A stretch of DNA of 64,000 bases, from positions 1,937,352-2,001,351 of the forward strand of contig OX595988.1 of the NCBI GenBank assembly GCA_951394045.1, read 5' to 3'. A model generated the notes under the pieces. It worked only from the letters and a program-made list of their open reading frames with translations. It did no database searches and was not told the DNA's origin. This stretch comes from Nitzschia sp. DOCU1. Taxonomy: Eukaryota; Bacillariophyta; Bacillariophyceae; Bacillariales; Bacillariaceae. Positions 19,701 through 36,822 of this stretch are shown one piece after another (within the stretch, counting starts at the first letter, position 1; each line of letters starts with the position of its first letter). The translations under genes and the position numbers were made by a program.

Positions 19701-20134
19701 CCCGGTACAACATCCACAAGAATCCCGCCTTCGGGGCCAAGCACGTCGCTAAGGTCGTCGCACACTTTTCCTCTTTCCCTTGTATTCAAGATGGAATCGC
19801 AAAGCTCAGAAAAGGCTTGTTTGAGGGCTGCGTATGGTTCATACCCCTGAACTTGACTGAACTTTCCTGAACATATGTAAGTTTTGCATTCACCGGCCAC
19901 GAAGTCATTTGGATTAAGTTTCTCCTCTCTCCTCAACGCTTCTTCCACCAGCGACGACTTCCCAGCCCCAGATTCACCGGCTACCAGGACAATTTGTGGT
20001 CCGTGATCAGCCCCCAATAAAATGGAATTTCTGGATCGCTCGCACGCGTGGGCCAGAGTGTCCAGCTCCTTCGATCTGCCGAAAAGACACGGGTCGTGGA
20101 GTTGAAGCCGAATCGGGCCGTGTTGATCTGCCAT
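16772..20134 (-). CDS. Large STAND-like P-loop ATPase with helical repeat tail
   Basis: An uninterrupted ORF of 1120 codons from the ATG at 20134 (six non-ATG codons are open before it). The N-terminus LFGRSKELDTLAHACERS leads into an Orc1/AAA-type NTPase: Walker A VAGESGAGKSSLVEEAL (about residues 48-64), Walker B FILFLDDMQWSD, and NPFMVREFLRLM. This matches the 'predicted ATPase' family that in protists and bacteria is often coupled to adenylyl-cyclase or kinase domains. Residues of about 450-1050 are alpha-helical and TPR-like (repeated Ala/Leu/Tyr patterns such as AALDLGAKVLKDLGEPF-like). No cyclase or kinase domain is present here. A signalling scaffold role is inferred from the family only. 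The C-terminal 60 residues are Ser/Thr-rich. Confidence 0.8.
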   Translation of the reverse strand: MADQHGPIRLQLHDPCLFGRSKELDTLAHACERSRNSILLGADHGPQIVLVAGESGAGKSSLVEEALRREEKLNPNDFVAGECKTYICSGKFSQVQGYEPYAALKQAFSELCDSILNTRERGKVCDDLSDVLGPEGGILVDVVPGVATLMIADQQDDVVSNTQGSMESFLRLKFLLKLFVRTVCKHRRFILFLDDMQWSDRSTLELVESIISDSETHQFMFIGTYRIDEVDQKHPFSEIISKVERYRSIQRIEVGNMNVESIDELVRYLTRGDREKTRDVAELVYRKTLGNPFMVREFLRLMETEKFIEYSWMNLEWTFRLDKMIKETHLPDSVVGVVALKISRLPQEGQDILKLAACLWSRFHAGSLFLIATRLDKGFSRVETEGDFVAVLDMAVTESLLDSLGNGHYKFSHDRIQESACSLFKDENERKKFHLEVGEVIRRMMRGEEEQGWMLFIATDQLNRGIDCTRKQELRREIVRMNLDAATKAIDISAFVPASNYLFHGIQLLDEDCWKNNYTLTLQLHAKAAEVSMCIGNHECCVKYADAVIANARSFADRTPVLMSLINAYGNQTEYKKAMDLGAKVLKDLGEPFPRKANMGQVLVQLFMTMRVLRRMTDDDILSLPRMTDDRKSAAMIILNKRSVHALLRSRPPDMLLCLIRNVQLTLKFGLHNISPSAICAYGLVLGTLGKLKEGIRYGELAIKLLNRLGAKEWEANCAQIFHQALRHWKEPYSECVGGLTRAYKAGMTYGDIEFAFYNGICAVSFFFLSGLNLEPCESDCRLYCEQMRVYNRENNYTVSCPTWQLLLNLLGKSEDPLMLTGEAMDETVFVEKMAKEKNLGALQTYWINKGQLCYYFGDVKEALRVLIEFGKTKANLATHFFTSIYTFFLGLVAIEMARTTKRSGKHRAVAQKAIKTIKSWVKIGNANLAHKLLLLKADFNALQENHEKKVRMDYDAAIVAASRAGFIQDAALANERAGLWFSSRNDENSQYWAKVYIERAHLLYSDWSAHGKARHMMRTYPQILNKDASSSLGKTIGESVSQITGYSGQDRSGAMGAAVTSSGSFTTEARLTQTSTTFRGVTRFDPEAAGQHSRVAERSSFFTADAGNTSLRKTVWQRN

Positions 20135-20664
20135 GGTCGTAGCATCTACCACAGGCCGAATTGTCGTGGTTGCGAGGAGTAGACCTTGACATGTCGAACT
20201 GAGCAGAAATCCAGGCGCTATTCTCTCTAGTAGAGTACGAGCGTAGTAGCGTGAACTGGATTTCCTGAAGTGGATCTCGCCGTCTTTTCGGCATAGATGG
20301 ACCTTTTCTCGTTCCTACTCTTCTCGCGTGTATGATATCTCGCACAGAGAATTCAGAATAGCCCACCGGGTTGGGTGCGCGCATTCTCGATGATTTTTTC
20401 TGTCCCAGAGAAGCCGGCGAAGGAAATGGAAATCGTACCCCTCGAATACTTGGATTTAAAAACGGGTTATGGGCTTCACGGAAGTACGGAAGTTGTATAT
20501 ATAATTCTTTTTAAGTACCAAACTTTTAAGCGAATATTTGGCGACCGAAGCCCCTACCCACCACTCCATCTAGTCCTCGATTGCCACTCACCCTTCGGTC
20601 ATCCTCAGGGGGTGTGTCACGTCCCCACATTCCTACCCCAACCAAGCAACGTCACCTTTGAGCA
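20135..20664. other. Boundary region: host promoter and probable left end of the mobile element
   Basis: This 530-bp spacer lies between the divergent ATPase gene and the recombinase gene. The proximal part should be the host promoter. From about 20540 the sequence becomes C-rich and AT-poor (CCCCTACCCACC, TCATCCTCAGGGGG), unlike the AT-rich stretch before it. I place the element border near here without finding a terminal repeat or target duplication. Confidence 0.35.
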
Positions 20665-22584
20665 ATGGATGGTCAGATTGCCTTTTCTGACTCCTCGTTA
20701 GCCAACCCTCCACAATTTTCCAAGAGTTCCAACATGCCACCTTCCAACCTACCCAATCCAGCTCCAGACCCGGCACTATGGCAGGATACTTCATTTCACT
20801 TCTCACTAGATGCCCGCTGCATGGATAGGTTCATCAACAGATACCTAGGACAAAAGGTGATTGATGGGCTAGTCGCCGCCGCCGAAAGATTAAGAATCCA
20901 GATCCCTGATTGCAATATCCTCTGGCTCACCAACCATGCTGGCAGGTACCAGCAATATGCTGATCCAGATGACCGAAAAACACAGGAACAACTTCAACAA
21001 GCATGTTTTGCAGGGTTGTCGACAGAGGAACGGGATACACAGTTCCTGTCCAAATACCACAAGGAGGTGGCTTCTTCCCCCCGCTTTCGTGGTTCCAGTC
21101 TCAAGCCCACAACCACCAATTCCTACGAGGATAAGCTAGGCAAGCTTTGGATGTTCCTAGCAATGTTGGGCGATTACGAGAGTATGTTGATTCTTCTTGC
21201 AACACCCCCCATTGCATTTATTCCATCCATAAATGCAGACCACCTTAAGGCATATTGCGACCATCGATTTCTGCTAAAGAAGTCCCCACTGTTCTGCCCC
21301 AATACAAGCGATCAACCACTCTGTGATGTTCATGATGTACCAATTCTTGCAGAAGGTGGAACCTTCAACCACCACCGGTTTCAAAGTTTATTTGCGGCTG
21401 TCACCTTTCTATGCACCAAGCACAAGAATGGTGGGAACTACACCCCTCGCTGCGAAAACTGCTTCAACCATTTTATCAACCGTCAACTGACCCCCTGCCA
21501 ATATCACCCAATCCAGAACTTCTGTAACACAGGCAATCCAATTTGCTCTGATGTAGCTAAAATGCTAAGAAAGTGGCTTATGGCCGAGAACAACCGGCGA
21601 AACTACTGTGTCCGAAAACGTGACGTACTTCTTCCCTCCGATCTTGTGGACATTCACCACCATGTTACCCAGGCTGACTTCCACATCACCCAGTTCCAAT
21701 TTTATGTGATGTTACTCAATGCCCTTGATGGGGCCCTCCGATTTGATGGTTTGCACGACGTATCTTTTCAGGATTTTGAGAAAGACGAACATCGGCAACT
21801 TTGGCAAGTCAATAGTCACTGTGGAATTAAGTACCTGGTTCAAGGTGTAAAGGAGAAAAACGACAACCAGGTTCACCTTTACAAAATTTCCTTTAAAGAT
21901 GACTTTCCCGAGCAATGCTATCTCCGCCATCTCCTTATTTTCATTCACTGTGCAACTCATGACTCAGGTCACGTTTTCCGACGTCACGTTTTTGCACATT
22001 CAGGCAACCCGGCACCGGGCAACGTTGACAATGAACCACCCATAGGGGACGACCACCCTGTGCCTCATCAATCATTCCACAACTGGATCTGCTCACGTCT
22101 CCGCCTAAACTGCCGCCACACTCTCAAACCTGGCCTGCTGAAGTGGGGCACTCATTCCCTAAGGCGTACCTTTTATTTCTTCTGGGCACTGGGTGGTGGC
22201 GAGTTCGAAGCTGCCAAGAGAAACGCTCGCCACAAGGACACTGCTACTGCCCTTGGCTACCAGGCGGACTCTGCAGTCCTAGTTCGGGAAATCCATTCCA
22301 ACCCCAAAGCAGCCATTATACAACGAATTTGGCCAGCACAAGAGCGCCTCTTGTGCCAAGGCGGACACTCCCTTATGCGAATTCACCAATTTTCTGCAGA
22401 CATCCCAATCGAGCTAGGTGGACTTTCAGAAGCGGCAAGTTATTTTGTTACCAAAATGCTGGGTGTGCCTAGCAACAGCCCCATCTATCGCAATGCGGGG
22501 CAGTTGTGCCAACTTTCCTATACCAGAAAATTTACAGACAACAGGGCTAAAGCCTCATACCTGGAGTGGGTCGAGGAAAGTTAA
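20665..22584 (+). CDS. Tyrosine recombinase, Crypton-like (candidate mobiliser)
   Basis: Intronless ORF of 639 codons from an ATG at 20665. The C-terminal half carries the tyrosine recombinase signature: Arg359 in ALRFDGLHDVSF, a candidate strand Lys around residue 395-402, His497-x-x-Arg500 in THSLRRTF, His523 in ARHKDTA and the nucleophile Tyr532 in ALGYQADS. The spacings (3, 23 and 9 residues) are typical. All catalytic positions are filled, so activity is plausible. The N-terminal about 330 residues include Cys/His pairs (CTKHKNGGNYTPRCENCFNHF) that may form a zinc-binding or DNA-binding part. Family: YR of Crypton or related eukaryotic elements, by motif only. The ORF overlaps the start of the next ORF in the minus-one frame. 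Confidence 0.8.
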   Translation: MDGQIAFSDSSLANPPQFSKSSNMPPSNLPNPAPDPALWQDTSFHFSLDARCMDRFINRYLGQKVIDGLVAAAERLRIQIPDCNILWLTNHAGRYQQYADPDDRKTQEQLQQACFAGLSTEERDTQFLSKYHKEVASSPRFRGSSLKPTTTNSYEDKLGKLWMFLAMLGDYESMLILLATPPIAFIPSINADHLKAYCDHRFLLKKSPLFCPNTSDQPLCDVHDVPILAEGGTFNHHRFQSLFAAVTFLCTKHKNGGNYTPRCENCFNHFINRQLTPCQYHPIQNFCNTGNPICSDVAKMLRKWLMAENNRRNYCVRKRDVLLPSDLVDIHHHVTQADFHITQFQFYVMLLNALDGALRFDGLHDVSFQDFEKDEHRQLWQVNSHCGIKYLVQGVKEKNDNQVHLYKISFKDDFPEQCYLRHLLIFIHCATHDSGHVFRRHVFAHSGNPAPGNVDNEPPIGDDHPVPHQSFHNWICSRLRLNCRHTLKPGLLKWGTHSLRRTFYFFWALGGGEFEAAKRNARHKDTATALGYQADSAVLVREIHSNPKAAIIQRIWPAQERLLCQGGHSLMRIHQFSADIPIELGGLSEAASYFVTKMLGVPSNSPIYRNAGQLCQLSYTRKFTDNRAKASYLEWVEES

Positions 22585-23225
22585 ACCCAGATCAACGCCA
22601 AAAAGCTTTATCCCTTTTTCACAATGCGGTGGAAGAGGAGGTATCTTTACAATTGCAAGGCAGTTCCCCTGAATCTACTGCTCCAAGTCCTGCAGCTGCA
22701 CGAGGTACCATCCAACCATCCCCGACAGATGAACACAAGCCAGCAGCCAGCAATGCCTCCCAAGCAACCACTCCCTCACCACTACCTCCCACGCTTCCAG
22801 GTTTCCACTTTACAGGTGTCACTGACCACGGATCAATTATTCCTCTGGAAATACTAGTCAAGGCAGGTACAACCACAACAGGTAGAGTTCAATACAAAGT
22901 CAAGCCTGACATCCTTCCAAGGCTTTCAGGGCACCATGGTGAATTGGTGATCAGGGTTCTGTATAGACTCATGCATGAGGTTGCCAGCATTGCTTTTGAC
23001 GGTCAGCAGCCACCTGTACCCTTCGACCTACTCTACGAACAAGGGCGCAAAAAATGTCGACCATCCAGACACATTTTCAAGAAGTACCTCAACGCACTGC
23101 ACCTTTGTATCCGAGTTTGTCATTCCAACAATATCAACAGCTTCATTGATGCCAACCCATCTTGGTGTATCAGCAATCCCCCTGTTTGCATCAAATGCTA
23201 CCCACAAGTCCTACCCTCTAGTTAA
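22551..23225 (+). CDS. Second-frame extension of the recombinase gene, or separate ORF
   Basis: This frame is open from 22551 to a stop at 23223-23225, overlapping the recombinase end by about 34 bp in the minus-one frame. It has no ATG before about residue 145. That suggests it is the C-terminal part of the recombinase protein joined by frameshift or by an unseen intron, or that a one-base indel split one gene. The sequence has a Pro/Ser/Thr linker (about residues 30-85) and then an ordered part (LPRLSGHHGELVIRVLYRLMHEVA, RHIFKKYLNALHLCIRV) ending in Cys/Pro-rich CIKCYPQVL. No family recognised. Confidence 0.5.
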   Translation, partial: SLIPGVGRGKLNPDQRQKALSLFHNAVEEEVSLQLQGSSPESTAPSPAAARGTIQPSPTDEHKPAASNASQATTPSPLPPTLPGFHFTGVTDHGSIIPLEILVKAGTTTTGRVQYKVKPDILPRLSGHHGELVIRVLYRLMHEVASIAFDGQQPPVPFDLLYEQGRKKCRPSRHIFKKYLNALHLCIRVCHSNNINSFIDANPSWCISNPPVCIKCYPQVLPSS

Positions 23226-23334
23226 TTCCAGGACCTTGACCTTCCACCCTGTTCCGAGTTTGAACCCCCCCAACAATTCAACGGAGTACATCATTTAATG
23301 AACCAAACACACTATAGCAACACAGCAGTCCAAT

Positions 23335-24361
23335 CCAATAACGAGTAATGGTCCAACCTTAGTATACCATTTCAACAGGTTGCTATCCACTTTTTAGCAA
23401 TCTATTAGTAGAATTCACTAAGCTAGCTACCAAATAGCACGTTTTTGCTCGTTTCTACGAGCTTTTCCGCCTATCCACACATTTTTGACAACTACCTGAC
23501 ACCCAAGGGTCAAATCCAATAACGAGTAATGGTCCAACCTTAGTATACCATTTCAACAGGTTGCTATCCACTTTTTAGCAATCTATTAGTAGAATTCACT
23601 AAGCTAGCTACCAAATAGCACGTTTTTGCTCGTTTCTACGAGCTTTTCCGCCTATCCACACATTTTTGACAACTACCTGACACCCAAGGGTCAAATCCAA
23701 TAACGAGTAATGGTCCAACCTTAGTATACCATTTCAACAGGTTGCTATCCACTTTTTAGCAATCTATTAGTAGAATTCACTAAGCTAGCTACCAAATAGC
23801 ACGTTTTTGCCCGTTTCTACGAGCTTTTCCGCCTATCCACACATTTTTGACAACTACCTGACACCCAAGGGTCAAATCCAATAACGAGTAATGGTCCAAC
23901 CTTAGTATACCATTTCCACAGGTTGCTATCCACTTTTTAGCAATCTATTAGTAGAATTCACTAAGCTAGCTACCAAATAGCACGTTTTTGCCCGTTTCTA
24001 CGAGCTTTTCCACCTATCCACACATTTTTGACAACTACCTGACACCCAAGGGTCAAATCCAATAACGAGTAATGGTCCAACCTTAGTATACCATTTCCAC
24101 AGGTTGCTATCCACTTTTTAGCAATCTATTAGTAGAATTCACTAAGCTAGCTACCAAATAGCACGTTTTTGCCCGTTTCTACGAGCTTTTCCGCCTATCC
24201 ACACATTTTTGACAACTACCTGACACCCAAGGGTCAAATCCAATAACGAGTAATGGTCCAACCTTAGTATACCATTTCCACAGGTTGCTATCCACTTTTT
24301 AGCAATCTATTAGTAGAATTCACTAAGCTAGCTACCAAATAGCACGTTTTTGCCCGTTTCT
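23335..24361 (+). repeat. Tandem array of a 181-bp unit, about 5.7 copies
   Basis: Unit starts at 23335, 23516, 23697, 23878, 24059 and 24240, with a constant period of 181 bp; the sixth copy stops at about 24360. The copies differ at only a few positions (for example GCTCG versus GCCCG, CAACAGG versus CCACAGG). Each unit holds small self-complementary words such as TTGCTA...TAGCAA and GCTCGT-TTCT-ACGAGC. No ORF crosses the array. It lies between the recombinase gene and the palindrome-type repeats. Confidence 0.97.
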
Positions 24362-24366
24362 GAGTT

Positions 24367-24540
24367 GACCAAATGGATTAGTCTTAACGCAAGCTACCCC
24401 GTTGGTCAAAGGCCACCTACCAGTTCGACTGCTAGGATCGCAATTTCTGATTGGACCAAATGGATTCGTCTTAACGCACGCTACCCCGTTGGTCAAAGGC
24501 CACCTACCAGTTCGACTGCTAGGATCACCATCCATTGTAA
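24367..24540 (+). repeat. Two 87-bp direct repeats carrying the shared core (half-sites)
   Basis: Two copies with a period of 87 bp begin at GACCAAATGG (24367 and 24454). Each carries AAGGCCACCTACCAGTT (24409 and 24496), the reverse complement of the core found in the other repeat blocks of the element. They lie just downstream of the stop of the minus-strand gene at 24625. Confidence 0.9.
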
Positions 24541-24624
24541 ATCCAAACAACTACATGGCTAGTAGGATTAACTAAATGGCTAGTAGGACTAACACATATA
24601 CTAAAACCATTACTGTTTGGAATC

Positions 24625-27600
24625 CTATACCGGCACAGGCTCCCACTCGGTTGATCCAAAATACTTTACCATGGGTGCACCCTCGTTGGAAAGTCTGAAC
24701 AATGACTGTCCTATGAAATACCGGTCAAACTTCTGGCAAAGACGACCATCCCTTGACTCGCAAAGGATATTCTCGACCTCATCCAGGTGAATGGGCCTAG
24801 TACCCACCGAAAGGGATGTTCTTATGTCCTCTAGGACCTGTGTCATATCCTCTTTCCCTATACCCGCCATCAGAAGGTGGTCGTGCCCCCCGCTCCCCTC
24901 CAGTGGGACGAAGACACTGCGCAATTGTTTCCGCGCCTTCACGCCAAGTCCCAAGTGAGCATCAGCTTGCACACACAGCATCAGACGGAAACCGCCCAGT
25001 TGACACAATATTCTCGCCTTTATATTTTTGTTGGTGTGCAGCAATGTTGTTGTGACATTTTCCATATTCGGTTCCACGATTTGGTTCATGTTTGACGCAA
25101 GTAAACGCAGCTCCTCCACCACAAAGTCCACCAGTTCCTTTTTGGGATTAACGTCTGTCCCAAAAGTTACCGCAAAATCAATAGCCGCCGGTCCGAATCG
25201 TGGGGTCGACCCACCAATCATCCGTGCACAGGGTTTCTTGTCCTCGAACAATATGGTTGCCACGCGGTAGTACTCAAAAATAGGGTAGTTCACGTCGAAG
25301 TCAGGGTTTCTCAACATTTGCTGGCAGACCTGGTGAAAATTCACAAAGCTGTTCTGCCACACCAGGACTAACACCAGCTGGTAGAGACCTGTGACTGGCA
25401 CTCTCAACTTCGTTTTGAGTTCCAAAATGTCCGACAAAGCTAGGGACATCCAGAATCCACGACCGATTCCTGTCAGCAGGGTGAAGCTTCCGTCGGCGTC
25501 CCATGGAGTCATAGCCGACAACGAGAAATCGTCCACACAGTACCACCGTGGGATGTTTTTTCCTTGGTACCCGCCTTGGTGTGCCTCCACCCAACGCACG
25601 TAAGCCTGGTCCAGACTGTTGAGGTAAGTGCTAGCGGCCAGCATGACCTTGTTCACAGCCGATGCCTTGGCTCCGTAGTAATCGCCAATGTTGCGGCGAT
25701 AGCCCGTGATCAACTTCAGAGACCAAAGCGAGCCGGTCGCATCCACCAGATTGATCACTTTGACGACAACCCGGTCGTACGAGGGCCTGTGATCGTTGAA
25801 TTGATCACGGTGTTCCTCACCCCCCTCTCCAGCAGATAAATTCAACAACTGTAAGGTGACGAACTCCACGTCGGACTTGCCAGAATAAAAATAGTCGGCG
25901 AGATGCGACGCATAATCCTGATAGCGGCGGTGGTTGATTGTAACCGGTAGCTTGAGACAGTCCGACATTTCTCTCCCCATTGGACACAGTCCATCCAACA
26001 GTTGCCCGATGACTTTTCTCACCAAGTGGTCTTCAGGTTCAGTGTCGGAGAATACCTCGGTGCCGCAAAGCGTCCTTGGCCGAAAGCTCCCATCCGGTAG
26101 GGCGTCGTACGCCTGTCCTCCATTCATTACGTCGATGCGCCGGCCTCCAGATCTTTTCTCCTGTCGACCACCCTTTTTTTTCAGGAAATTGAAAAGACAA
26201 TCAAGCCCCTTGTACTGGCTGCCCTCTTCCGGGAAGTGTCGTTTAAATATACTACTTTCCGGGCGTGCCACGTAAAATTCATTGCCCACTATTGCACGGG
26301 GGCATTGGTCGCCAACAACAATAAGAGGCGCGTCCGAACGTTCGAAGTGTTCGGGAGGACAGTCACCCATGTTTTGATATTGGTGGTTGTATTCGCCCAG
26401 TTTGCGTGCGAAATACACCTCCACCGGAGCGTGGTACAGCATAATAATGTCTTCGGTCCGCCTTACCACCAGGCGGTGATGAAGTTTCCTGGTTTCCTCC
26501 AATGTTGCAACGCGAAGGGGTTTACTGTCTTCAAGTGACGGGTCCCCTTGGCAGCTCGGACTTGCAGTCGGGCTCTGGGTGACGGCCCTGGGAGTGGGTC
26601 GGTGAGCCACTGACACTGCCTTGGTGAGGGCACGGCGGTCCTTATCAAAAAGTGATGGGGCTGCTTGGAGGCTTGCAAGAACAGCGGTGGGCACGGGCAG
26701 TTGCCGTCGACTACGCTCTCCAATCTTGATTTCCACCTCGGTGCTTTGCTTGCGGTAGGACGTAAGACGATTGATAGTCATGGATGACTCTCTCCTCTTA
26801 TCTAGCTCCATTGTCACGGCCAGCCTGACCAACGTTCTCTGAGCTGGCCATTGACGTTCGTCCATTTTGGAGCATGCACGAAGGAAATGTGTCTTCAACT
26901 GAACATTCAAGTCTTGCTTGTATTCGAAGAAAGATTGCGATTTAGACCGCGCAGAGACCTTTTGGCGGATTGTCGCGGGGTCGTCGAGGAGCTCCCTCAT
27001 CATGGTCTTATTCTCGATGATTACATCGTGGGTCGGACACATCATCAGGAGGTCTTGACAGGACTCAAGGACCATACGCTTGGTGGAACAATCCAAAAAA
27101 ATCAGGGTAAATAGCTTCTTCATCACATCCTCGTCCTCAAATATCTCAGTACGAAGAACTGGCTCAAAACAACACTGCATCGTCCTCCAGGCTAGCTGGA
27201 GAATTTTTTGACGTTCAACCAGATTCCTCCAAGAAGACAGCTCTGTGAAAAGTTTAGAAACAAGGCGGTCCTTCTCCGAATGTCTGTTGGGACCGGTAAT
27301 TTTTTTTTTTTTGGGCAAAGGACCAAGCGTACTGCTATCGGTCACGTCGTCGGTGGCCATGCTGTAGGTTCCTCCTTCGCCTTGGCTCCAGCTGGTGTCG
27401 TCGAAATCCTCCTCCTCGTAGTCGCCCTTTGAGTCTTCGTCGTCGTAGTCGTCTGTGGATTCTTCCTCATCGTCATCGGATTCCGAATCATTCGCCTCAT
27501 TCTGGATGGTTGTAGTATTACCAGGCCCACCTGCCAATCTAGATACGTGCGAGTTAGCAGGTTTGCCGCCGGCCGTAGCATCCTTGGCACCGATACCCAT

Positions 27601-28392
27601 TTGGTCCGGCACGGTTGTAGTGTAAACAGATAATGTTGCGGCGGCTCCGCCTCCTTTGCTGTGTAACACGGATTTGGTCTCTCCCAAATCGGTGGAGGGC
27701 GGCGGGAAAAGTTCATCACTTTGGAGCACTTTGTAGAGCGACTCCATCATGGTCGCCGCTCGATAATACATCTGTGCCTTGTCGCCGCCAATCAACTTCA
27801 GGCAGTTGTGGATGCGGACGTAGGACACATGTACGTGACCTTGCGCCACCTTAGCCTGCCAGCCACGTAAACGCAGGAAGGTGGCTAACGACATTTTGAG
27901 TTCGTTAGAAAATACCGTGCAGGCGTAAATGCTATCACGGAAAAAAGATTTCTTGCGCTTCTTCGAAAATAGAATAAGACCGAGAGCAACCATGCCCTGT
28001 GAGGGCAAATAAGGACTTTGTGTCCGATTCATCTCCTTTCGCTTTTTTGTCTCGACGACCTTGGAAACGGCCTGGGTGAGGTTGACATCGTTGACATCAC
28101 CGCCGTTGGAGAATGCAACAACATCGTTTCCCAGCGCTGCGGTGAGTAGGTCCATTTCCTCATCCAAAAATAAATTCCTGATCGTCTGACCAGCGACGGT
28201 GGGTATCGTCGGTCCCGTGGTAAAATCGGGGTCAGGGCGCACAACGGCGTCAAAATTAACCAAGTCGCTTGTCGGCCAATCGATGGTGCCTACCGCCCTA
28301 CCGAGAACTGTATCTGCCGTCAAACTATCATCATCTATCAGTGAGACTGATTTGTATTGTTCTTTGAGACGTCGTCTGAGTGTAACTACCAT
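24625..28392 (-). CDS. Orphan 1255-aa element protein with acidic centre
   Basis: An uninterrupted frame of 1255 codons runs from the ATG at 28392; the frame is open to 28503 but without an earlier ATG. I recognise no family. A helical N-terminal half leads to a strongly acidic tract (DDDEEESTDDYDDEDS, about residues 335-365) followed by a Lys-rich signal-like PKKKKI. Another mixed domain contains HRDQFNDHRPSYDRVVVKVINL (around residue 880), where an His-x-Asp pair resembles metal-binding motifs of 2OG dioxygenases; this is a weak resemblance only. The C-terminal 250 residues are ordered and hydrophobic-patterned. The gene is divergent from the Ulp1/RING gene, with palindromic repeats between them. 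Confidence 0.75.
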   Translation of the reverse strand: MVVTLRRRLKEQYKSVSLIDDDSLTADTVLGRAVGTIDWPTSDLVNFDAVVRPDPDFTTGPTIPTVAGQTIRNLFLDEEMDLLTAALGNDVVAFSNGGDVNDVNLTQAVSKVVETKKRKEMNRTQSPYLPSQGMVALGLILFSKKRKKSFFRDSIYACTVFSNELKMSLATFLRLRGWQAKVAQGHVHVSYVRIHNCLKLIGGDKAQMYYRAATMMESLYKVLQSDELFPPPSTDLGETKSVLHSKGGGAAATLSVYTTTVPDQMGIGAKDATAGGKPANSHVSRLAGGPGNTTTIQNEANDSESDDDEEESTDDYDDEDSKGDYEEEDFDDTSWSQGEGGTYSMATDDVTDSSTLGPLPKKKKITGPNRHSEKDRLVSKLFTELSSWRNLVERQKILQLAWRTMQCCFEPVLRTEIFEDEDVMKKLFTLIFLDCSTKRMVLESCQDLLMMCPTHDVIIENKTMMRELLDDPATIRQKVSARSKSQSFFEYKQDLNVQLKTHFLRACSKMDERQWPAQRTLVRLAVTMELDKRRESSMTINRLTSYRKQSTEVEIKIGERSRRQLPVPTAVLASLQAAPSLFDKDRRALTKAVSVAHRPTPRAVTQSPTASPSCQGDPSLEDSKPLRVATLEETRKLHHRLVVRRTEDIIMLYHAPVEVYFARKLGEYNHQYQNMGDCPPEHFERSDAPLIVVGDQCPRAIVGNEFYVARPESSIFKRHFPEEGSQYKGLDCLFNFLKKKGGRQEKRSGGRRIDVMNGGQAYDALPDGSFRPRTLCGTEVFSDTEPEDHLVRKVIGQLLDGLCPMGREMSDCLKLPVTINHRRYQDYASHLADYFYSGKSDVEFVTLQLLNLSAGEGGEEHRDQFNDHRPSYDRVVVKVINLVDATGSLWSLKLITGYRRNIGDYYGAKASAVNKVMLAASTYLNSLDQAYVRWVEAHQGGYQGKNIPRWYCVDDFSLSAMTPWDADGSFTLLTGIGRGFWMSLALSDILELKTKLRVPVTGLYQLVLVLVWQNSFVNFHQVCQQMLRNPDFDVNYPIFEYYRVATILFEDKKPCARMIGGSTPRFGPAAIDFAVTFGTDVNPKKELVDFVVEELRLLASNMNQIVEPNMENVTTTLLHTNKNIKARILCQLGGFRLMLCVQADAHLGLGVKARKQLRSVFVPLEGSGGHDHLLMAGIGKEDMTQVLEDIRTSLSVGTRPIHLDEVENILCESRDGRLCQKFDRYFIGQSLFRLSNEGAPMVKYFGSTEWEPVPV

Positions 28393-28904
28393 CGTATTCG
28401 CCTGTAGCTGAAAACGGTGTGTGCGGAAATTATCGCGCAAATGCGAGACGTAGTGAAAAACAAAAATCTGGGATTTCGGTTTTTCACCATTATTCGCCCT
28501 ACGCTAAGTTACGCGTAGAGATTTGTACCAAGTTCAATTGACTGATTCTGAGAATTATGACAGGCAAGTGGACACCGCCGTGCTCTTGCGCGCGTCCGCC
28601 CGTGGGGTGGTTTGCTAAGTAGCCGGTGCTGTTTGGCAGTTGAATGACGAATAAGACTCACCTGGCCATCGAAATATTGTGCACTATCCAGTTTATATTC
28701 TAAATTTGTCGAAGGTGCTCTTATGTACATAAGGAAGTTAGTATTTTGAACGTTGGGAGAATGTGTGCACTCCCCCTTGTGGAAAGGTTATATGCCCTTG
28801 TTTCTATGTATCGGTACGAGCACGTGCCGACCCAATTTATGTTTAATAAGCCCTTATGTCTGTCGGAATTCCGGTCTCGAGATTCAACCCGGTCGGTCGG
28901 TCCT

Positions 28905-29271
28905 AGGGCCAGCAACCAGTTGGAAAATGTAACTGGTAGGTGGCCCTGGAGTGGGTGGGCAAACGGTCATTCAGTCATCCGTCACGGTTCGACTGGTACC
29001 TGGCCCTGCCTCTTGTTGGCCATCCGTACTCCCGTCATACGGTCGCACGGATAACCACGGTCCTAGTAGGGCCAGCAACCAGTTTGAAATTGTAACTGGT
29101 AGGTGGCCCTAGATTGGGTTGACAAACCGTCATTCAGTCATCCGTCACCGTTCAACTGGTACCTGGCCCTGCCTCTTGTTGGCCGTCCGTACTCCCGTCA
29201 CACGGTCCACGGATAATCACGTCCTAGTAGGGCCAGCAACCAGTCTGATGTTGGAACTGGTAGGTGGCCCT
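28905..29271 (+). repeat. Three palindromic modules in a 161-163-bp tandem array
   Basis: Modules lie at 28905-28947, 29068-29110 and 29229-29271. Each is 43 bp: a 17-bp arm (AGGGCCAGCAACCAGTT), a 9-bp spacer, and the complementary arm (AACTGGTAGGTGGCCCT). The arms pair at 15 of 17 positions in the second copy. Between modules the sequence also repeats, including GACTGGTACCTGGCCCTGCC. The array lies in the divergent gap between the minus-strand orphan and the Ulp1/RING gene, a position suited to operators or recombinase-binding sites. Confidence 0.93.
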
Positions 29272-29379
29272 GAATTGGAAAGCCACGTGTGCTGCTGATG
29301 TCCTTGGTGGTTTGACAATGCCATCTTCCAGTTGTCTGCTTAGGTCAATTGACATTAGAGCCCACAAATAACATCCAGG

Positions 29380-32300
29380 ATGCAAGAAGCCAGTCACTGG
29401 ATAAACAAATATGAGTTGGTAGAACCACTCAAAAGAAAAGATTTGCCCAAACGGCAGCCCAATGATTGGGTAAGGCCCGGGGATGTTGATTGGTCGCGTG
29501 TTCTAATGTCGTTTGAGCGAAGGGACAGTTGGCTTGTTGAATCCGTCATTGTAACCATACTCGAGGGGATGCTGCCCAAGGGAACGTTGCTACTACCTCA
29601 TTATATAGCCGAGCTTTTTCAAGGGCAAGAGGGGAATCTTGGTCCTGAGAATGGACGTTGGCAGCGATTCTTGGCCAATACCAGAGAAAAATTCCAATCG
29701 CAGCAACCCAATTTTGAACGGAGACAAATGGTGCGAGTTGTTGCCGCAGTCAACCTGCGAGAAAATCACTGGATTGGGTGCGAGATGGACCCATTCAAAA
29801 GGAGGATTTGGGTTTATGATTCTATGATCCCCACTGGTTTGGCAGGTAGGGTATATCTATTTGATCCCATGCAGAAAACCAACGAAAAATTGCCTGTCAC
29901 GTACAAAAAGTTTCATGTGATGTCGCAGTTTGTGGACTGCTTGTACAACCACCGCTCTGCCCCTTGGCAAATGGTATTTCCAAAGAAAGAGGAGGTGCCC
30001 CAACAAGTGAACTCCTGGGATTGTGGCGTTTATGCCATCATGATTCTGATGGAAGTTGCAAGGTCACAACCCATTGGCTGGATTACACCGACCGACGTGG
30101 GGAATGCGCGTCAGTACTTTTTGAAACTGATCATTGCATTGGGTAAGAAAAAACATTGTCGGTTCGATGAAGAAAAGTTGGACATTGACGAGCGGGCTAT
30201 GTTGGACGTCTACAAGGTCCATTTTGTGCAGCGTGCGGGTGCTGGAATTGGTGAGGGGGAGACAAAAAAAGGAGCTGCAGGGCGTAGGTCGGGCTATCGA
30301 CTACGAATCAGGAAGGAAACAATCGCGAAGGACAGTACGAAAGAGGAGGTAATATTGATAGCAGAAACTCCACCAGATACTCCGCCAAAGAAGCAAAGAA
30401 GGAATGCCCTCACTGGTGATGAAGAGAGGGAGGACGATTCAAAAAAACCACCAGCAAAGCGACGGTCCGACTACCGACTACGCAGCAAGGAGGCAAGCAC
30501 CATGGTGTCCACACGGAGTGGGGACAAAGCGACTAAGGTCTCCACCAAGGTACCAAAGAAGGGCCCCACCAAGACGGCAAAGCAGAGGGGCAAGCTGACC
30601 AAGAAATCAAAGGCCGCCGCAAAGGAAAACAACGGCGGCAAAGCCCTGGGACGGGACAACGTTCAAGAAATCGAAGCAGAGCTGGAGGATCCATATTTCG
30701 ACTCCCCGTCCTTTTCACTGGACTCCTCCATATGCTCATCAGTTCGCGGATCTTTGAATGCTGACACCGACGACCAGGAATGGAACAAAAAGTGCGCAAG
30801 GGCGATGCAACCGTTTGGTGAATTCGGGTTCCAGATTGAGTTGAAGTCACTGCATTTCCCCCCACTGTTAAAACCAGGAGAAAACTGGGACGAGGCACTG
30901 CTCAACACTGGCCTTGGGCTGCTCGCCGCAGTATGCCAGCAAAAAGAGGAAGGCTTTTATATTTACCCCACAGTTCTATCTGGCGCTTACTCCTTCAAAG
31001 AGGGTTATGCTGCCAAGCCAACGGACCTGGGCGGCGCTAAAGTGGTTTTCATCCCTCTCCAGGTAGACGAACCTACCGAGCACTTTTTCCTCCTCAGAGT
31101 GGAAAAAGGGCCCTCCGAATCTGCTTCGGCACAGATGAATGTGACGTTATTCGAGGCCGTCGTTCGGGAAGACGGGGGTGCACCCAAAACCCTGGAGGAA
31201 CTCGAGGCGGATGACCCAGACTTCTTTGTAACTGCTCAAGAGCTAGCAAAGACAGCCATGCGGTGGATTGGTTTGGAAGGAGAAGCCCGGCTGACTGGGT
31301 ACGAGAACATAGCTTCCGCCCCGACTGATAGTAACAGTTGCGGTCCGGCCATCTTGCTGAAGCTGAACCAGGAAGTTGGTTGTCCTAATTGGGAGGACTG
31401 GCCCTCTGGAGGTGACGCTAGGTGGACCACAAAGGCAAAAGCGCTTCGGCTTGTCAGCAATGCCCTCCTTCATTTCTGGGACAAGCTAGTGCCAAACGGT
31501 GGTGAGGACAGCAACAATTGGGCAGTCTGCAAAGAGATCAGTCTGCGCCTCCATAGGTTGACCCCCCGATCCTTCATCGGGCTCATCAGCCGACTCAAAT
31601 GTTCCCCCTGCGTCTGCGTGGAGAAAGTACAATCCCAGTTTGTCTCGCTAGGTTGCTGCTTCCGCAGAATGCACTCCCAATGCTTTCTTGCGGAATGGAC
31701 GCAAAGGGGGCAGGAGAGGGCTGGAACTCGGCCATTGTGCAGTAGCTGCAACGGGCAAATCGAAGAGATCCAGCTCATCAACGAGAATCTTGAGAATGGA
31801 ATGTCAAAATGGTACCCACCGCCACGGGGCCCTTATGAAGAGGATTTCAAGGAGTGGCTGGAGGATTTGCAGAAGAAGCCGATGGTGGAGGACCCAAATC
31901 TCCCCATCGAAGAATTGCCCCAGGTCGCCCCTCAACTCACTGCCTCCCCCACGAGCAGCAATATTCTGACCTCGCCAGTGGTCACTTCGAAGACGCCAAT
32001 AGGGTTAAAAGGGAGCACAGTGCCGGTCCAACAAGAACAGTTGAGTGTCCATGCCGGTGTGGAGGAGGGAGAAGAAGATTCAAAAAAACAATCAGCAGCC
32101 AAGGATCAGGGTGAAGAAGATTCAAAAAAACAATCAGCAGCCAAGGATGGTGGAGACTGCGAAATGGACGTTGACGTGGCCGAGCCAGGGGAAAATCAGC
32201 AAGGCAAGCCTTACCGGGGCAGAACCATGCAGACACTAGATGTTGGGAGGAAAGACGGGGAAAAATACCTGGTGTGTTGTTTTTGCCACAATTTCTTTGG

Positions 32301-32973
32301 AAAGATCAATGCCGAATTGTCAAAGAACTACAGAAGTGACAATGACGCAAGGATCATTTCCTATGTTTCTAATGAGATTGCCTGTTCCCAGCTGAGAAAA
32401 AAGAGCGGGTATAAAAGCATGGTCCAACACTTGTGGACATGTGGCCTTGCGAGGGGTAAAACAAGGGATGATTGGCCAGATTTCTTCGATCCCTGCTATG
32501 GTGGTAAAAAAAGGAAGGGGGCCCTGACAGATGCGGAGAAAAGGAGAACAGAGCCAAACAAAGCCAACAAAGGTCACGAGGGTAGGTGCAAGACCATAGC
32601 GGATGTCAACCCGACTGACCTGGTCCTTTGGTGCCCACACTGCGAGAGGGTTAAAGATGTGAAAAGAAATGTTGTGGAAGCCTTGTGCCCACACTGCCGA
32701 AAGGATAAGGATGGTAAGAGAAAAGCCAAGGAAGCATTTTACCCAAATTGCCCCAAGAATGCATTCAAGAAGCTCGGAGAGCATTGGTTGGTTGCTGACC
32801 TAGAAATGGAAGCCCATCATTGCATTAGGAAGACTCATGCTTGGAAGAGGATGAGGGAGCATGTTCGGGATCATGTTATGATGGGAAGGCATGGATTGGA
32901 AAAGCATAGTCTGGAGGTGGAAAACTCACTACCACTGTTCTACCGTCACAAAGACACACCTAGCTTACCATAA
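29380..32973 (+). CDS. Ulp1/SENP (C48) peptidase with second peptidase-like domain and RING-like finger
   Basis: Intronless ORF of 1197 codons. Domain 1 (about 115-260) is a C48 SUMO/NEDD8-type cysteine protease: His130 in ENHWIGC, Asp147 in WVYDSM, Gln208/209 and Cys215 in VPQQVNSWDCGVYA. Basic low-complexity sequence with nuclear-type Lys/Arg clusters follows (about 290-425). Domain 2 (about 485-700) repeats the plan more loosely: His568 in EHFFLL, Glu592 in TLFEAV, Cys654 in DSNSCGPAILL. A RING-like finger (about 741-793) has CSPCVC, CCFRRMHSQC and CSSC. Two 14-residue copies with EEDSKKQSAAKD precede a C-terminal Cys/His-rich part (CCFCHNFFG, CPHCERVKD, CPHCRKD). The union of deSUMOylase and E3-like parts is unusual. 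It might modify host SUMO or ubiquitin targets. Confidence 0.85.
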   Translation: MQEASHWINKYELVEPLKRKDLPKRQPNDWVRPGDVDWSRVLMSFERRDSWLVESVIVTILEGMLPKGTLLLPHYIAELFQGQEGNLGPENGRWQRFLANTREKFQSQQPNFERRQMVRVVAAVNLRENHWIGCEMDPFKRRIWVYDSMIPTGLAGRVYLFDPMQKTNEKLPVTYKKFHVMSQFVDCLYNHRSAPWQMVFPKKEEVPQQVNSWDCGVYAIMILMEVARSQPIGWITPTDVGNARQYFLKLIIALGKKKHCRFDEEKLDIDERAMLDVYKVHFVQRAGAGIGEGETKKGAAGRRSGYRLRIRKETIAKDSTKEEVILIAETPPDTPPKKQRRNALTGDEEREDDSKKPPAKRRSDYRLRSKEASTMVSTRSGDKATKVSTKVPKKGPTKTAKQRGKLTKKSKAAAKENNGGKALGRDNVQEIEAELEDPYFDSPSFSLDSSICSSVRGSLNADTDDQEWNKKCARAMQPFGEFGFQIELKSLHFPPLLKPGENWDEALLNTGLGLLAAVCQQKEEGFYIYPTVLSGAYSFKEGYAAKPTDLGGAKVVFIPLQVDEPTEHFFLLRVEKGPSESASAQMNVTLFEAVVREDGGAPKTLEELEADDPDFFVTAQELAKTAMRWIGLEGEARLTGYENIASAPTDSNSCGPAILLKLNQEVGCPNWEDWPSGGDARWTTKAKALRLVSNALLHFWDKLVPNGGEDSNNWAVCKEISLRLHRLTPRSFIGLISRLKCSPCVCVEKVQSQFVSLGCCFRRMHSQCFLAEWTQRGQERAGTRPLCSSCNGQIEEIQLINENLENGMSKWYPPPRGPYEEDFKEWLEDLQKKPMVEDPNLPIEELPQVAPQLTASPTSSNILTSPVVTSKTPIGLKGSTVPVQQEQLSVHAGVEEGEEDSKKQSAAKDQGEEDSKKQSAAKDGGDCEMDVDVAEPGENQQGKPYRGRTMQTLDVGRKDGEKYLVCCFCHNFFGKINAELSKNYRSDNDARIISYVSNEIACSQLRKKSGYKSMVQHLWTCGLARGKTRDDWPDFFDPCYGGKKRKGALTDAEKRRTEPNKANKGHEGRCKTIADVNPTDLVLWCPHCERVKDVKRNVVEALCPHCRKDKDGKRKAKEAFYPNCPKNAFKKLGEHWLVADLEMEAHHCIRKTHAWKRMREHVRDHVMMGRHGLEKHSLEVENSLPLFYRHKDTPSLP

Positions 32974-33089
32974 TACATTAATAGAGGTCCAAGATTTAGG
33001 TAAACATTGACTTAGTTGTCAAGATTCATGAAGGTGCTTATGTGCCTAACTACCACATCTGAATTGGAATTTAGTGCTCATACAAGTCA

Positions 33090-33595
33090 TATTGGTAGGT
33101 GGACTTGAATATTCTGTAATGGGAGGTAGGGACAAATCTGCTCGGTCAAAATCGACTTAAAGTCGAATTGGTCCAATTGGTAGGTGGCCTTAGCCTGGGG
33201 TTGGGGCGAAGAAATCCAATTGGTTGTCTTCCAGTCAAATGAGTCCGATTGCCTTAAAGTCGAATTGGTCCAATTGGTAGGTGGCCTTAGCCTGAGGTCG
33301 GAGCGAAGAAATCCAATTGGTTGCCTTATAGTCAAATGAGTCGGATTGACTTAAAGTCGAATTGGTCCAATTGGTAGGTGGACTTAGCCTGAGGTCGGAG
33401 AGAAGAAATCCAATTGGTTGCCTTCCAGTCAAATGAGTCCGATTGACTTAAAGTCGAATTGGTCCAATTGGTAGGTGGCCTTAGCCTGAGGTCGGAGAGA
33501 AGAAATCCAATTGGTTGCCTTTCAGTCAAATGAGTCCGATTGACTTAAAGTCGAATTGGTCCAATTGGTAGGTGGCCTTAGCCTGGGGTCGGAGC
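33090..33595 (+). repeat. 97-bp tandem repeats with half-site cores upstream of the acidic-protein gene
   Basis: TTAAAGTCGA occurs at 33157, 33254, 33351, 33448 and 33545, exactly 97 bp apart. Each is followed by AATTGGTAGGTGGCCTT (33175, 33272, 33369, 33466, 33563; the third has ACTT). A further lone core is at about 33090. Minus-strand ORFs of 65-82 codons arise from the repeats but simply reflect the repeat period. Confidence 0.95.
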
Positions 33596-33739
33596 AAGGG
33601 TTTAAAAAAAATGATGGGCAGGTGGGCATGTGCCCCAACAATGACAAAAACTGGGAGGGCCAAAACGAGTTGGGGAAACGGTGTTACATCAGTCTAAAGA
33701 AGAGATTGGTTTTAAAGAGAAGAAGATTGAAATAAGAAA

Positions 33740-34678
33740 ATGTTGGAACCTGGGGAGTTGGTTATGTTGGAAGAAGTCATGGAAGAAACTGTCAAAAATG
33801 ATTCCAATGATACGGATGGGCATGCTAAACAGAAGGTAAATGCCCCGTCAGCTGTCCGTTTGGAACCAATAATGGAGGAGCTTTATGCAGACATAGACGC
33901 ATTGGAGATGATTGACCCGCACAGGTCCAGGGCAGTTGAACAACAATTCATTGAAGAGATTAAGGCAATTATTGCTCAGGCTCGTGATAAATTACGAAAA
34001 GGTGAAGAGACTAAAATTCCAGTGGAAACCACTGTCGTTGTGGTGGATGGTAAACAAGGGAGTGGTGAAATGCGCCAGGAGGTTAGCAAAGAAACGCAAA
34101 CAAGAGATGACAGTGTTAGCGTAAAAATGGATAAAGTGGAAGAAAGTGAGTGTGCTCATGTTGAGAAAAAAAGGAAGATGAATTACGAGGAGTGGGAAGC
34201 ACCGCCGGTGGAAAATGGGGAGTGGTTGGAGGCAGAAGGGTTTGGAGCATTACGTAGGTCCCTGGAGGTGGGAGTCCCGGAGGATGTCGAGGAGGCTGCA
34301 TTTGTAGAGTGGGATGAAGAGGAAGAGGCCAGGAGGTTGGAGTTTGAACGTAGGGGTAACAGGCTGTGCGAGCAGTGTGGTTCTGACCCATGTTGCCTTG
34401 ACAATTACTCGCGTGGCAAAGATGGGAAGGAAAGAAGGCTTGGACATGACATGATAAGTTTGGGGGAAGGAATGAAGGATAGAGATGGAATGAGTAATTT
34501 GGAAGTACGCCATAAATTGGAAATTTTTGCGAAGAGCTTCATGAAAAATCTGGTGGACGACAGGTTTAAAGACAAACTTCCAAAGTGCGTTGAGGAAGAA
34601 ATAAAGAAAAGTTACCCGGAGAGGGGGGTGAATGTGAAGAATACCTTCAAACAAGGGTATATGTATTTCTTGGATTAG
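33740..34678 (+). CDS. Acidic element protein with a Cys cluster
   Basis: Intronless ORF of 312 codons from the ATG at 33740. Residues of about 1-150 are acidic and helical. The middle has KKRKMNYEEWEAPPVEN and a Glu-rich stretch. A Cys cluster CEQCGSDPCCLD (around residue 214) could bind a zinc ion. The C-terminus has KKSYPERGVNVKNTFKQGY. No family was recognised. The gene lies immediately after the 97-bp repeats, and the minus-strand small gene follows within 12 bp, tail-to-tail. Confidence 0.65.
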   Translation: MLEPGELVMLEEVMEETVKNDSNDTDGHAKQKVNAPSAVRLEPIMEELYADIDALEMIDPHRSRAVEQQFIEEIKAIIAQARDKLRKGEETKIPVETTVVVVDGKQGSGEMRQEVSKETQTRDDSVSVKMDKVEESECAHVEKKRKMNYEEWEAPPVENGEWLEAEGFGALRRSLEVGVPEDVEEAAFVEWDEEEEARRLEFERRGNRLCEQCGSDPCCLDNYSRGKDGKERRLGHDMISLGEGMKDRDGMSNLEVRHKLEIFAKSFMKNLVDDRFKDKLPKCVEEEIKKSYPERGVNVKNTFKQGYMYFLD

Positions 34679-34689
34679 TTTAAAAAATC

Positions 34690-35215
34690 TTAAGTTTGTG
34701 GTTCCCAGTTGAACTCATTCTCCTCGTTGTCAGAAGTGCTAGCAGCAGATGCATGGGTGGTGGTGGAATTGGTAGCAGCAGTATGTCTGGTGGTAATTTT
34801 CCTGGCCTTAGTTCTCTTGCGAATGTGGGGTGTGGCTGATTTGGCTATGGAAAAAAATTGGTCGAGGGAGTGCTGCTTGCCTTTCTTTACTTCTTTCAAT
34901 GCTTGACGTTTGACTTTTTTGGCTGCACGTTCTTCGAATTGGTAGGATTCGTATCGTTCCCTGGCCGTTTACATGGGGGGGGAGCTTGTTGAGGTAGAGG
35001 TGGCACTGGGGACAGTGACAGTCTTTGGATTGGTGTTCGATGACAACTCGAGGGTCATAGGTAGGGTCGATTAGCCGGCGGGAGAACTTCACTTGGGGTG
35101 GACTACTCTCTGGAGATGAGGTCATATTGGGGGATAAGGAGGATATGGTTGTAACGATGAGGATAGGGTAAACAGGCTCGATGAGGGTGGTTTTTTGGCA
35201 TGCTCCACACAACAT
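34690..35215 (-). pseudogene. Small Cys-cluster gene with PIP-box-like motif, frameshifted
   Basis: The frame from an ATG near 35215 gives LCGACQKTT, a Ser/Pro-rich middle and CHCPQCHLYLNKLPPHV, then shifts. A second frame of about 93 codons resumes at 34968 with TARERYESYQFEERAAKK and reads to the stop at 34690. Dropping one A of the AAA at 34968-34970 joins them. An eight-base G run (34975-34982, plus strand) lies beside this point and may be the cause. The C-terminal part carries QHSLDQFF, which fits the PCNA-interacting peptide pattern (Gln-x-x-Leu-x-x-Phe-Phe) with basic residues on both sides. Whether the break is real or an assembly error cannot be told here. Confidence 0.5.
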
Positions 35216-35384
35216 TGCAAAATCGAAAATCAATGAGTGGGCGACTGGCCTTTTGTCATTGGTGGTTTGGTGCTAAGGCTATAGCTATTTAGCCTGATAA
35301 GGCCATTTATGAGATGGAAATCGCTGGGGCAATCACCTCCGTGGGGAAAACGAGGTTGGGGAAATCAGTTGTTATCGAGTAAGT

Positions 35385-35500
35385 AGGGCCAGGTACCAGT
35401 TGATGGATTGGAAATGGTAGCTGGCCCTTGTGTGTCCAGTAAAGACTATCGTAAGAAGGGCCAGATACCAATTGATACATCAAAATTGGTAGTTGGCCCT
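35385..35500 (+). repeat. Two palindromic modules near the right end
   Basis: The modules at 35385-35428 and 35457-35500 are 44 bp each: 17-bp arms of the AGGGCCAGGTACCAGTT type pairing at about 15 of 17 positions around a 10-bp spacer, 72 bp apart. They match the modules at 28905-29271 in plan and core. This is the last shared repeat before host sequence. Confidence 0.92.
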
Positions 35501-35788
35501 TGTGTGTCAGGTAAAGAGGATTCGATCGCCAAGGTTTGGTGATGGATCGCCTTTTGGAAATGAACACATGGTACTAATTCTACATACGTCGACTGATAGT
35601 AGACGTCGTACTTTTTAAAAAGTCGAAATAGGCGAAACTTTACACATAGGACATCGTATCATACATACTACGATATGACGCCGAAAATGTTGTGTTGAAA
35701 AAAGTAAAAAAATCGACACATCCAAAAAAAAGATATGGCACACCCTCCATTTCGAAGATGATGATTCGAAGGAATGAAGTGATATGGA

Positions 35789-36822
35789 ATGAGTAAACAT
35801 TTGCATCTTTTGATCCTTGTCGCGGCTGACCTCTTAGGTGGGGCGTCAGCAGTCCGTACACGCGTTACGTGGATCAACGGAATCGGCTACAATGAAAAGC
35901 ACGTGAAGATTGAAGTGGGAAAACTTTCGAAGCTGTTCGGTGCCACTGTTCACTGCTGTTTTAATCCGAGCGCAATGTCGAACGACAATGATATGATGGG
36001 TTATTTGAATGATTTGACTCAAGCTGGCACTCAAAAATTAGGTCGGATGACGGAGGAAGTGAAAGCCTTGGTGAAGTGAGTACACGTGGGAATCAAGTAC
36101 ATGTCGCAAATCCGGTAGAGAATGTTTCTCACCACGTGTGGATGTGAAGCCACCTGAAAAATGCGGTCGCTTTTGTCGGAAAGAATGGCCGCGTCATTCA
36201 CATTGCGCATTCGCAAGGTGCTCTCATAACTTCGTTGGCTGCCAAGCAGTTAACGCCTCTGGAAATGAATCGCATTGAAGTTATTGCGTTTGGAGGCGCT
36301 GCCGCCGTAAGACAAACACCACAGACGCCATTTCATCGATGCATTAACTACTACTCGGTCAATGATCCACTACTATGGGTTGTTCCGTCAGCCGAACAAG
36401 CACTTCGATCAGGGTTGGTAGCAGATGAGGAATTCTGTTTTCTCGTCCCTAAAATTGGAGATCCAATTCAAGATCATTATCTGTTGAATCCAACCTACGC
36501 TCAAGCACTTTCTTGGGAAGGTCAAAGATATCGAAGAATCTATCGGCGCACATCTTATTGGATACTGAGCTGGATTTTTGTCCTCCTGAGGACGTTTCTG
36601 GAGGCTACGATTATCAGTCTCTCGCAGTTTGCGTCAAATATTTCAAGCTACATCAGCAGTAGGCAGCGCCAACTGGTGAAAATGCTTGAGCTTTTGTTGA
36701 GGAGGATTGTGCTGTGCGTTCTGCTTGGCCTTCGGAGAGCCCGCGATCACGATAAGAACGCTATAAAGGCTGTGAATCGCAAAGAGCTAGTGCCCGAGGC
36801 GGGGTGTGTGCCCGCAAAATAG
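35789..36822 (+). CDS. Alpha/beta-hydrolase-like (lipase-type) protein
   Basis: Two exons, 35789-36075 and 36150-36822 (319 aa), joined by a 74-bp GT-AG intron. The N-terminus begins with a possible signal segment (LHLLILVAADLLGGASA), then TWINGIGYN, which fits the oxyanion-hole region of lipase-like hydrolases. Exon 2 has HIAHSQGALIT: a nucleophile elbow of the G/H-x-S-x-G kind with Ser as the probable nucleophile. Downstream, GGAAAV and YYSVNDPLLWV could hold the acidic residue. The C-terminal third is hydrophobic (YWILSWIFVLLRTFLEATIISLS), suggesting membrane attachment. Substrate unknown. The gene starts only about 290 bp after the last element repeat. Confidence 0.75.

Follow-up and report, generated by a model that had tools for sequence, protein, structure and literature searches.

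In the stretch of the Nitzschia sp. DOCU1 genome analyzed here (64,000 nucleotides, hereafter the window; C4:1937352-2001351 of an assembly of 52.08 Mb in 63 contigs), a 15-kb block encodes, in order, a predicted tyrosine recombinase, a protein of 1271 amino acids (aa), a protein with an Ulp1/C48 protease domain, and a 312-aa protein that we call gene 4 (Table 1). A first-pass annotation, made from the sequence alone, had proposed that these genes form a large, recombinase-led mobilized unit, and its stop-free frames of 639, 1271, 1197, and 312 aa are confirmed. That annotation would have counted a lack of paralogues with the block as a unit against its proposal; such paralogues do exist in the genome. 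The block is a real mobile unit, because its copies have common ends and unrelated flanks and two of them have empty sites, and it is very probably a diatom DNA transposon moved by the product of its first gene.

Table 1. Features of the element in the window, its copies, and related arrays (window positions unless a copy or locus is named)
Feature	Position	Strand	Basis or remark
Whole element, family 1	20492..35609	.	15,116 bp inserted net, with GT at each end; 7 copies aligned
Left target half-site GTAC with 4-nt spacer GGAA (host flank; putative)	20484..20491	.	left-flank comparison
Left terminus GTTG	20492..20495	+	GT common to target
Predicted tyrosine recombinase, 639 aa, C-terminus lost to frameshift	20665..22584	+	R359, H497, R500, H523, Y532; XerD spacing
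Recombinase remainder, out of frame	22566..23225	+	residues continue as in 853-aa copy L003
Tandem array, 181-bp unit x 5.7	23328..24361	.	Tandem Repeats Finder (TRF)
87-bp unit x 2 with core motif	24357..24526	.	
1271-aa protein, C-terminal half conserved at many genome loci	24625..28440	-	47 matching stretches; HxDxxND at 877
163-bp unit x 2.3, inverted core-motif pairs between two divergent genes	28904..29278	.	
1197-aa protein with Ulp1/C48 cysteine protease domain	29380..32973	+	PF02902 5.4e-10
97-bp unit x 4.6 with core motif	33154..33595	.	
312-aa protein (gene 4)	33740..34678	+	57 matching stretches in own genome
Candidate cassette exchanged with family 2	33814..35088	.	89% DNA identity to C5 copy; dS contrast
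72-bp unit x 1.9, inverted core motifs near right end	35379..35517	.	
Right terminus ATAGTAGACGTCGT, then target AC	35596..35611	+	copy alignment, junction reading
Arrays behind recombinase, families 2 and 3	L007 4122-4824; L012 3794-4614		
Copy C4	window		full-length
Copy C1a	2672518-2688337		full-length
Copy C1b	2730406-2745526		full-length
Copy C3	2881579-2896431	-	full-length
Copy C7	2021944-2037375		full-length
Copy C8	913287-927519		full-length
Copy C5d	596005-597811		internally deleted

Homology among seven near-identical copies, aligned as paralogues, starts at window position 20492 and stops at 35611, the last two bases (AC) being target and not element. The first-pass annotation had set the boundaries at 20560 and 35560 and had described the ends as not found; the alignment moves them to 20492 and 35609 and fixes both sides. 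A genome search with the first 181 bases of the element matched at least seven places, and one with its last 233 bases matched those seven loci again, in at least eight pieces; the seven left and seven right ends pair up in order. Six copies are full-length (14.2–15.8 kb). The seventh (1.8 kb) is internally deleted but keeps both ends: sequence corresponding to 20492-21989 runs directly into the right-end repeats, which it retains from position 35417. No similarity was found among the 400-bp flanks of different copies, and no terminal inverted repeats were evident when the ends were compared by eye. The genome holds 16, 11, and 47 stretches matching the recombinase, the 1197-aa protein, and the 1271-aa protein, respectively, and all three genes recur in the same order with 96–100% identity at five other loci, some of them broken or partly deleted. 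Among the six full-length copies the 853-aa recombinase frame is open in five, the undivided 1271-aa frame in four, the complete C48 frame in three, and gene 4 in all six. Long, collinear copies that are mostly 97–99% identical, two of them 58 kb apart on C1, would also be expected of an ordinary host gene block spread by segmental duplication; nevertheless, we regard this origin as extremely improbable and reject it as contradicted by the ends common to all copies, given that all seven stop at the same two places amid unrelated flanks, that for two of them an empty counterpart matches precisely at the junction, and that the deleted copy retains both ends.

The element is family 1 of at least three; families 2 and 3 share its layout but differ from it in sequence. 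The family 2 locus C5:2792995-2803568 encodes proteins with 58% (recombinase), 51% (1197-aa), and 33–35% (1271-aa) identity to those of the window. Querying the genome with the family 3 recombinase added a fragment at C14:518579 and revealed no fourth recombinase family.

Uninterrupted paralogous sites match the joined flanks of two of the seven copies, C1a and C1b. The search used the concatenated flanks (2100 bases) and gave 41 matches from the best 40 of 89 candidates, some of which are the flanks themselves and many of which fall in one repeat family. Insert-free matches to the C1a flanks occur in tandem units on C15 (three) and C14 (seven) and at further loci, and the C1b flanks have one at C1:2723828-2724009. 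Nine empty-site loci were read, eight of the C1a type and one of the C1b type. The empty sequence TTTTT[T]GTAC-CAAAATT is present in seven of the eight C1a-type loci (the other, L073, is a variant), and the filled site reads TTTTT-GT/TGTATA...GACATC-GT/AC-CAAAATT; C1b obeys the same insertion rule, with TTATC-GTAC-TATC as its empty site. Insertion falls within GT^AC and leaves GT at both ends, with a duplication no longer than GT. The host of C1a is a 1.2-kb tandem repeat family (C14:1240156-1247672 and C15:256515-259330) that has a diverged relative at window 53564-54442.

A second half-site lies 8 nt upstream of the insertion, where TA occupies positions -7 and -6 in all seven left flanks and GTA positions -8 to -6 in five; a 3-mer common to five of seven flanks at one offset arose in 1 of 5000 random flank sets. 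We infer a target made of two GTAC-like half-sites with 4 nt between them. The left junctions of family 3 read CTAC-N4-GTAG in all three copies read. In the C(A/G)T(C/A) sequence close to the right end, two positions differ between otherwise nearly identical copies, which suggests, without proving it, that these positions are part of the exchanged region.

The first gene of the element is predicted to encode a tyrosine recombinase from its residues and their spacing, a prediction that finds no backing in Pfam, the PDB, or fold evidence. The catalytic residues R359, H497, R500, H523, and Y532 are exactly where the first-pass annotation had placed them and are conserved in all three families. 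Each family has the same H-x2-R-x22-H-x8-Y spacing as Escherichia coli XerD, a spacing that appears in 75 of 20000 shuffles of the recombinase; the spacing alone is suggestive, and its conservation across divergent families (56–58% recombinase identity between families 1 and 2, and 30–36% between families 1 and 3) adds weight. When aligned with 81 XerD proteins using hhalign at a relaxed full-length setting, R359 falls on the Arg box, a VKEK stretch on the lysine region, and the H, R, H, and Y residues in register with those of XerD. The recombinase is a single 853-aa protein in all five other full-length copies, the window copy being frameshifted. In the ten pairs formed by these five open copies, 0–12 of ~1980 non-synonymous and 2–14 of ~579 synonymous sites differ (C7 versus C1b, for instance, 12/1980 and 13/579), a synonymous excess that fits purifying selection on the recombinase between jumps. 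Among 5.77 billion proteins the recombinase query found one relative and its six-row alignment two.

According to the mechanism that we propose, the recombinase would join the two ends into an excised circle with the junction TAGA-C(A/G)T(C/A)-GT-TG, and the circle would recombine with a palindrome-like chromosomal site, [G/A]TA-N5-GT^A[C/T]. Strand exchange at GT would keep one GT on each side and duplicate nothing else, and the empty allele at the window site would read GGAA-GTAC-TTTTTAAAAAG.

Several observations weigh against a transposon moved in this way by its first gene. At the insertion sites, five of the seven copies have no empty site among the best 40 of 89 candidates, and both empty sites found are paralogous sites in repeat families rather than alleles. 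C7 (ATAG) and C1b (ATAT) have imperfect left half-sites, the family 2 left junction GTAY-N4-CT fits two of three copies, and for families 2 and 3 no right end was located. As for the enzyme, the hhalign probability for recombinase versus XerD is 0.3%, neither Pfam, PHROGs, NCBIfam, nor the PDB matches the protein to a recombinase, and the Pfam PF00589 profile matches nothing in the whole genome. Other directions are suggested by stray library matches, each confined to one or two of the six homologues (Ima1_N, 0.00079; AraC-type RhrA, 0.0028), and the structure model of the window recombinase, built with two homologues (P0001 and P0002), is unusable, with a mean predicted local distance difference test score (pLDDT) of 30.7. 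Neither a circle, a transcript, nor movement was observed.

The element might instead be a viral remnant, for instance of a Polinton-like virus with a tyrosine integrase, since such viruses can carry both cysteine proteases and tyrosine recombinases. Its 15 kb lies within the 14–40 kb given for these viruses in the accessible part of PMC12220804. However, in the four main open reading frames (ORFs), to which the scan was confined, no family of capsid proteins, packaging ATPases, or DNA polymerases was found, and viral contigs searched with three element proteins contain no relative. We therefore reject this origin, which we consider very improbable. A DIRS/Ngaro retrotransposon would have a reverse transcriptase next to its recombinase, and the main ORFs contain no such family.

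The first-pass annotation had treated a Ulp1/RING protein as cargo. The Ulp1 (C48) part stands, given the match of the 1197-aa protein to PF02902 (5.4e-10) and the occurrence of H130, D147, Q209, and C215, which we take to be the catalytic residues of C48, in both the window and family 2; the RING part does not, as there is no Pfam match at E ≤ 1, and no counterpart of the Cys/His cluster was seen in the family 2 homologue. The protease may be a helper whose substrates are probably proteins of the element or the host conjugated to SUMO or ubiquitin. Further genes are indeed aboard, but the idea of cargo is borne out only in part: the C48, 1271-aa, and gene 4 proteins are common to families 1 and 2 and so seem to belong to the element itself and not to be host cargo, although a cassette with gene 4 was apparently swapped between these families.

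The 1271-aa protein matches no Pfam or PDB family and has no relative among the best 7992 candidates in a protein search. A profile of eight family members gave weak PDB matches (best E 0.014), all within the first 75 of 956 positions, and a structure model of the C-terminal 531 aa alone is unusable (mean pLDDT 33.3). An HxDxxNDxRxxY stretch at residue 877 is conserved in the genome-wide family (H is replaced by Q in L039). HxDxxND could be read as a sign of a TET/JBP-type 2-oxoglutarate oxygenase; this assignment was rejected, since a Pfam match is absent and a downstream His/Arg pair was not convincingly present. No recombinase was recognized at 11 homologue loci (L037-L047) within flanks of at most 1.5 kb each; a recombinase fragment on C9 (L016) lies a few kilobases from a 1271-aa homologue. 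As a guess, this protein might be a DNA-binding or regulatory partner.

The 57 genome stretches matching gene 4 comprise 7 long ones from families 1 and 2, one short fragment (C1:5348112, 76% over 37 residues), and 49 that cover only the C-terminal ~100 aa (residues ~204–308) at 30–37% identity; this part may be a domain that is widespread because it is mobile or carried by repeats. When families 1 and 2 are compared, gene 4 has a synonymous divergence (dS) of 0.35 and a non-synonymous divergence (dN) of 0.11, while synonymous sites are saturated in the recombinase (proportion of differing synonymous sites, pS, 0.80) and the 1271-aa gene (pS 0.81). Because of this difference, the simplest reading is that a 1.3-kb cassette holding gene 4 was swapped between the two families long after they split. 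The flank beyond gene 4 in the family 2 copy on C5 (L053) contains a 616-bp repeat at 1285-1900, with at least 40 near-full-length matches elsewhere (best 40 of 254 candidates scored), which is probably a solo long terminal repeat; the right end of family 2 was not located because the flank runs into this repeat.

Repeat families with one shared core in the gaps between genes, described in the first-pass annotation, are real. Allowing at most three mismatches, the core motif AACTGGTAGGTGGCCC occurs 19 times in the element, whereas the remaining 48.9 kb of the window and five mononucleotide shuffles of the element have none. Of the 58 genome-wide matches to AACTGGTAGGTGGCC with at most one mismatch, 55 fall within the six full-length copies, as do all 28 exact ones; a reversed control has 1. 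In family 1 the core motif is found in four gaps, namely the one behind the recombinase, the one that separates the divergent genes, the one ahead of gene 4, and one close to the right end. Family 2 has a different motif, TGGTTCCTGATCCGC, which forms inverted pairs in the middle gap and recurs close to the right end, and no shared motif was found in its gap behind the recombinase; family 3 (L015) has TATTGTCCCCACAATA-type repeats. The core-motif repeats, often in inverted pairs, may be bound by one of the element's own proteins, with the 1271-aa protein and the recombinase as the probable candidates, and this protein would control the element genes and pair the ends. A tandem array lies directly behind the recombinase in each family, with periods of 181, 182–183, and 183 bp, and a comparison of the array units across families gave no significant match (best E 0.055). 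Our guess is that this constant unit length with free sequence reflects nucleosome-scale spacing; the array may act through its length, for example by placing nucleosomes on the circle.

One alternative concerns the ancestry of the transposon and overlaps with the recombinase-driven mechanism: the element could be a large, divergent member of CryptonS, a kind already described, in which case only its size and extra genes would be new. We give this somewhat less than an even chance. The accessible part of Kojima and Jurka 2011 (PMC3212892) describes CryptonS in oomycetes and Phaeodactylum, some with a C48 peptidase and with 5–6 bp terminal direct repeats that are mostly TATGG, and says of Cryptons in general that they are without terminal inverted repeats and have 4–6 bp terminal direct repeats. 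Our element likewise has a stramenopile-type host, a C48 peptidase gene, no evident inverted repeats, and the predicted recombinase as the sole recognizable mobilizing enzyme, no transposase family being found in its main ORFs with Pfam. It differs, as far as descriptions alone can be compared, in its 15 kb and four genes, in having only GT at its ends, in its palindrome-like target, in its family-specific motif arrays and 181–183-bp array, and in the lack of a detectable Pfam Crypton domain: the six aligned homologues matched neither Crypton, DUF3435 (PF11917), nor other Pfam recombinase families among the five families listed at E ≤ 10, in a scan whose HMMER filters drop most weak matches. 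Membership in CryptonS is unproven.

The first-pass annotation had also likened the block to Starships, and here the plan and the empty sites agree. According to the accessible parts of PMC12134995 and PMC12506042, Starships are elements of Pezizomycotina fungi of 15 to ~700 kb with cargo and with a DUF3435 captain first at the 5' end, about 350 bp from it in the Starship Sanctuary. The recombinase of our element is likewise the first gene and points inward, its ATG at 20665 lying 173 bp from the element start, and further genes and empty sites (two of seven copies, paralogous) are found as well, with a direct repeat of only GT. In contrast, no DUF3435 captain was found, the host is an alga, the 15.1 kb sits at the lower limit of the Starship range given in the part of PMC12134995 available, and, judged from families 1 and 2, the gene set looks largely common instead of variable, with only the gene 4 cassette apparently exchanged. 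The element appears to work like a Starship or a large Crypton; kinship with Starships is not supported because no DUF3435 was found and the host is not a fungus. The likeness to bacterial XerD lies in the identical catalytic spacing and in the Arg and Lys regions aligned in order, whereas overall similarity is not significant and the element protein has extra N- and C-terminal regions. We regard as rather unlikely, although worth stating, that the element belongs to an independent diatom lineage of captain-led, multi-gene recombinase transposons, derived from neither Cryptons nor Starships, that would combine TAC/GTA half-sites 4 nt apart, cassette exchange, and an array acting by unit length and not by sequence.

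A literature search, which left out preprints and most subscription papers, found nothing that joins Starship, Crypton, diatom, and tyrosine recombinase, and priority over earlier work cannot be claimed. PMC3212892 is the only paper found that, in its accessible part, describes tyrosine-recombinase transposons in a diatom; the available text of PMC7466962 lists Crypton among 12 superfamilies in Cyclotella cryptica, a paper on Ectocarpus giant viruses apparently has Starships and Cryptons among its references but not in its text (PMC13236599, seen in part), and the word Crypton is absent from the accessible portion of a giant transposon review (PMC6431247). Large recombinase-led multi-gene elements are best known from fungi as Starships, which are implicated in gene transfer between species, and a diatom element with a Starship-like plan, with ends that are known exactly, empty sites that are resolved to the base, and five near-identical copies whose recombinase frame is open, makes a possible repeated origin of such elements directly testable and provides a defined attachment site.

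The assignment of the host to the diatoms, made in the first-pass annotation from the letters alone, is well supported and agrees with 63 genome matches to the light-harvesting family PF00504. The closest PDB entries to the one light-harvesting protein tested are the fucoxanthin chlorophyll a/c proteins FCPI-7 (E 1.3e-87) and Lhcr11 (1.8e-85), both presumably from a diatom. The insertion lies between an AAA_16 ATPase-domain protein (16772-20152) and a DUF6824 protein (36880-37902). Across window positions 22001-36000, GC skew runs from -0.33 at 23–24 kb to +0.42 at 34–35 kb in a roughly mirror-like pattern.

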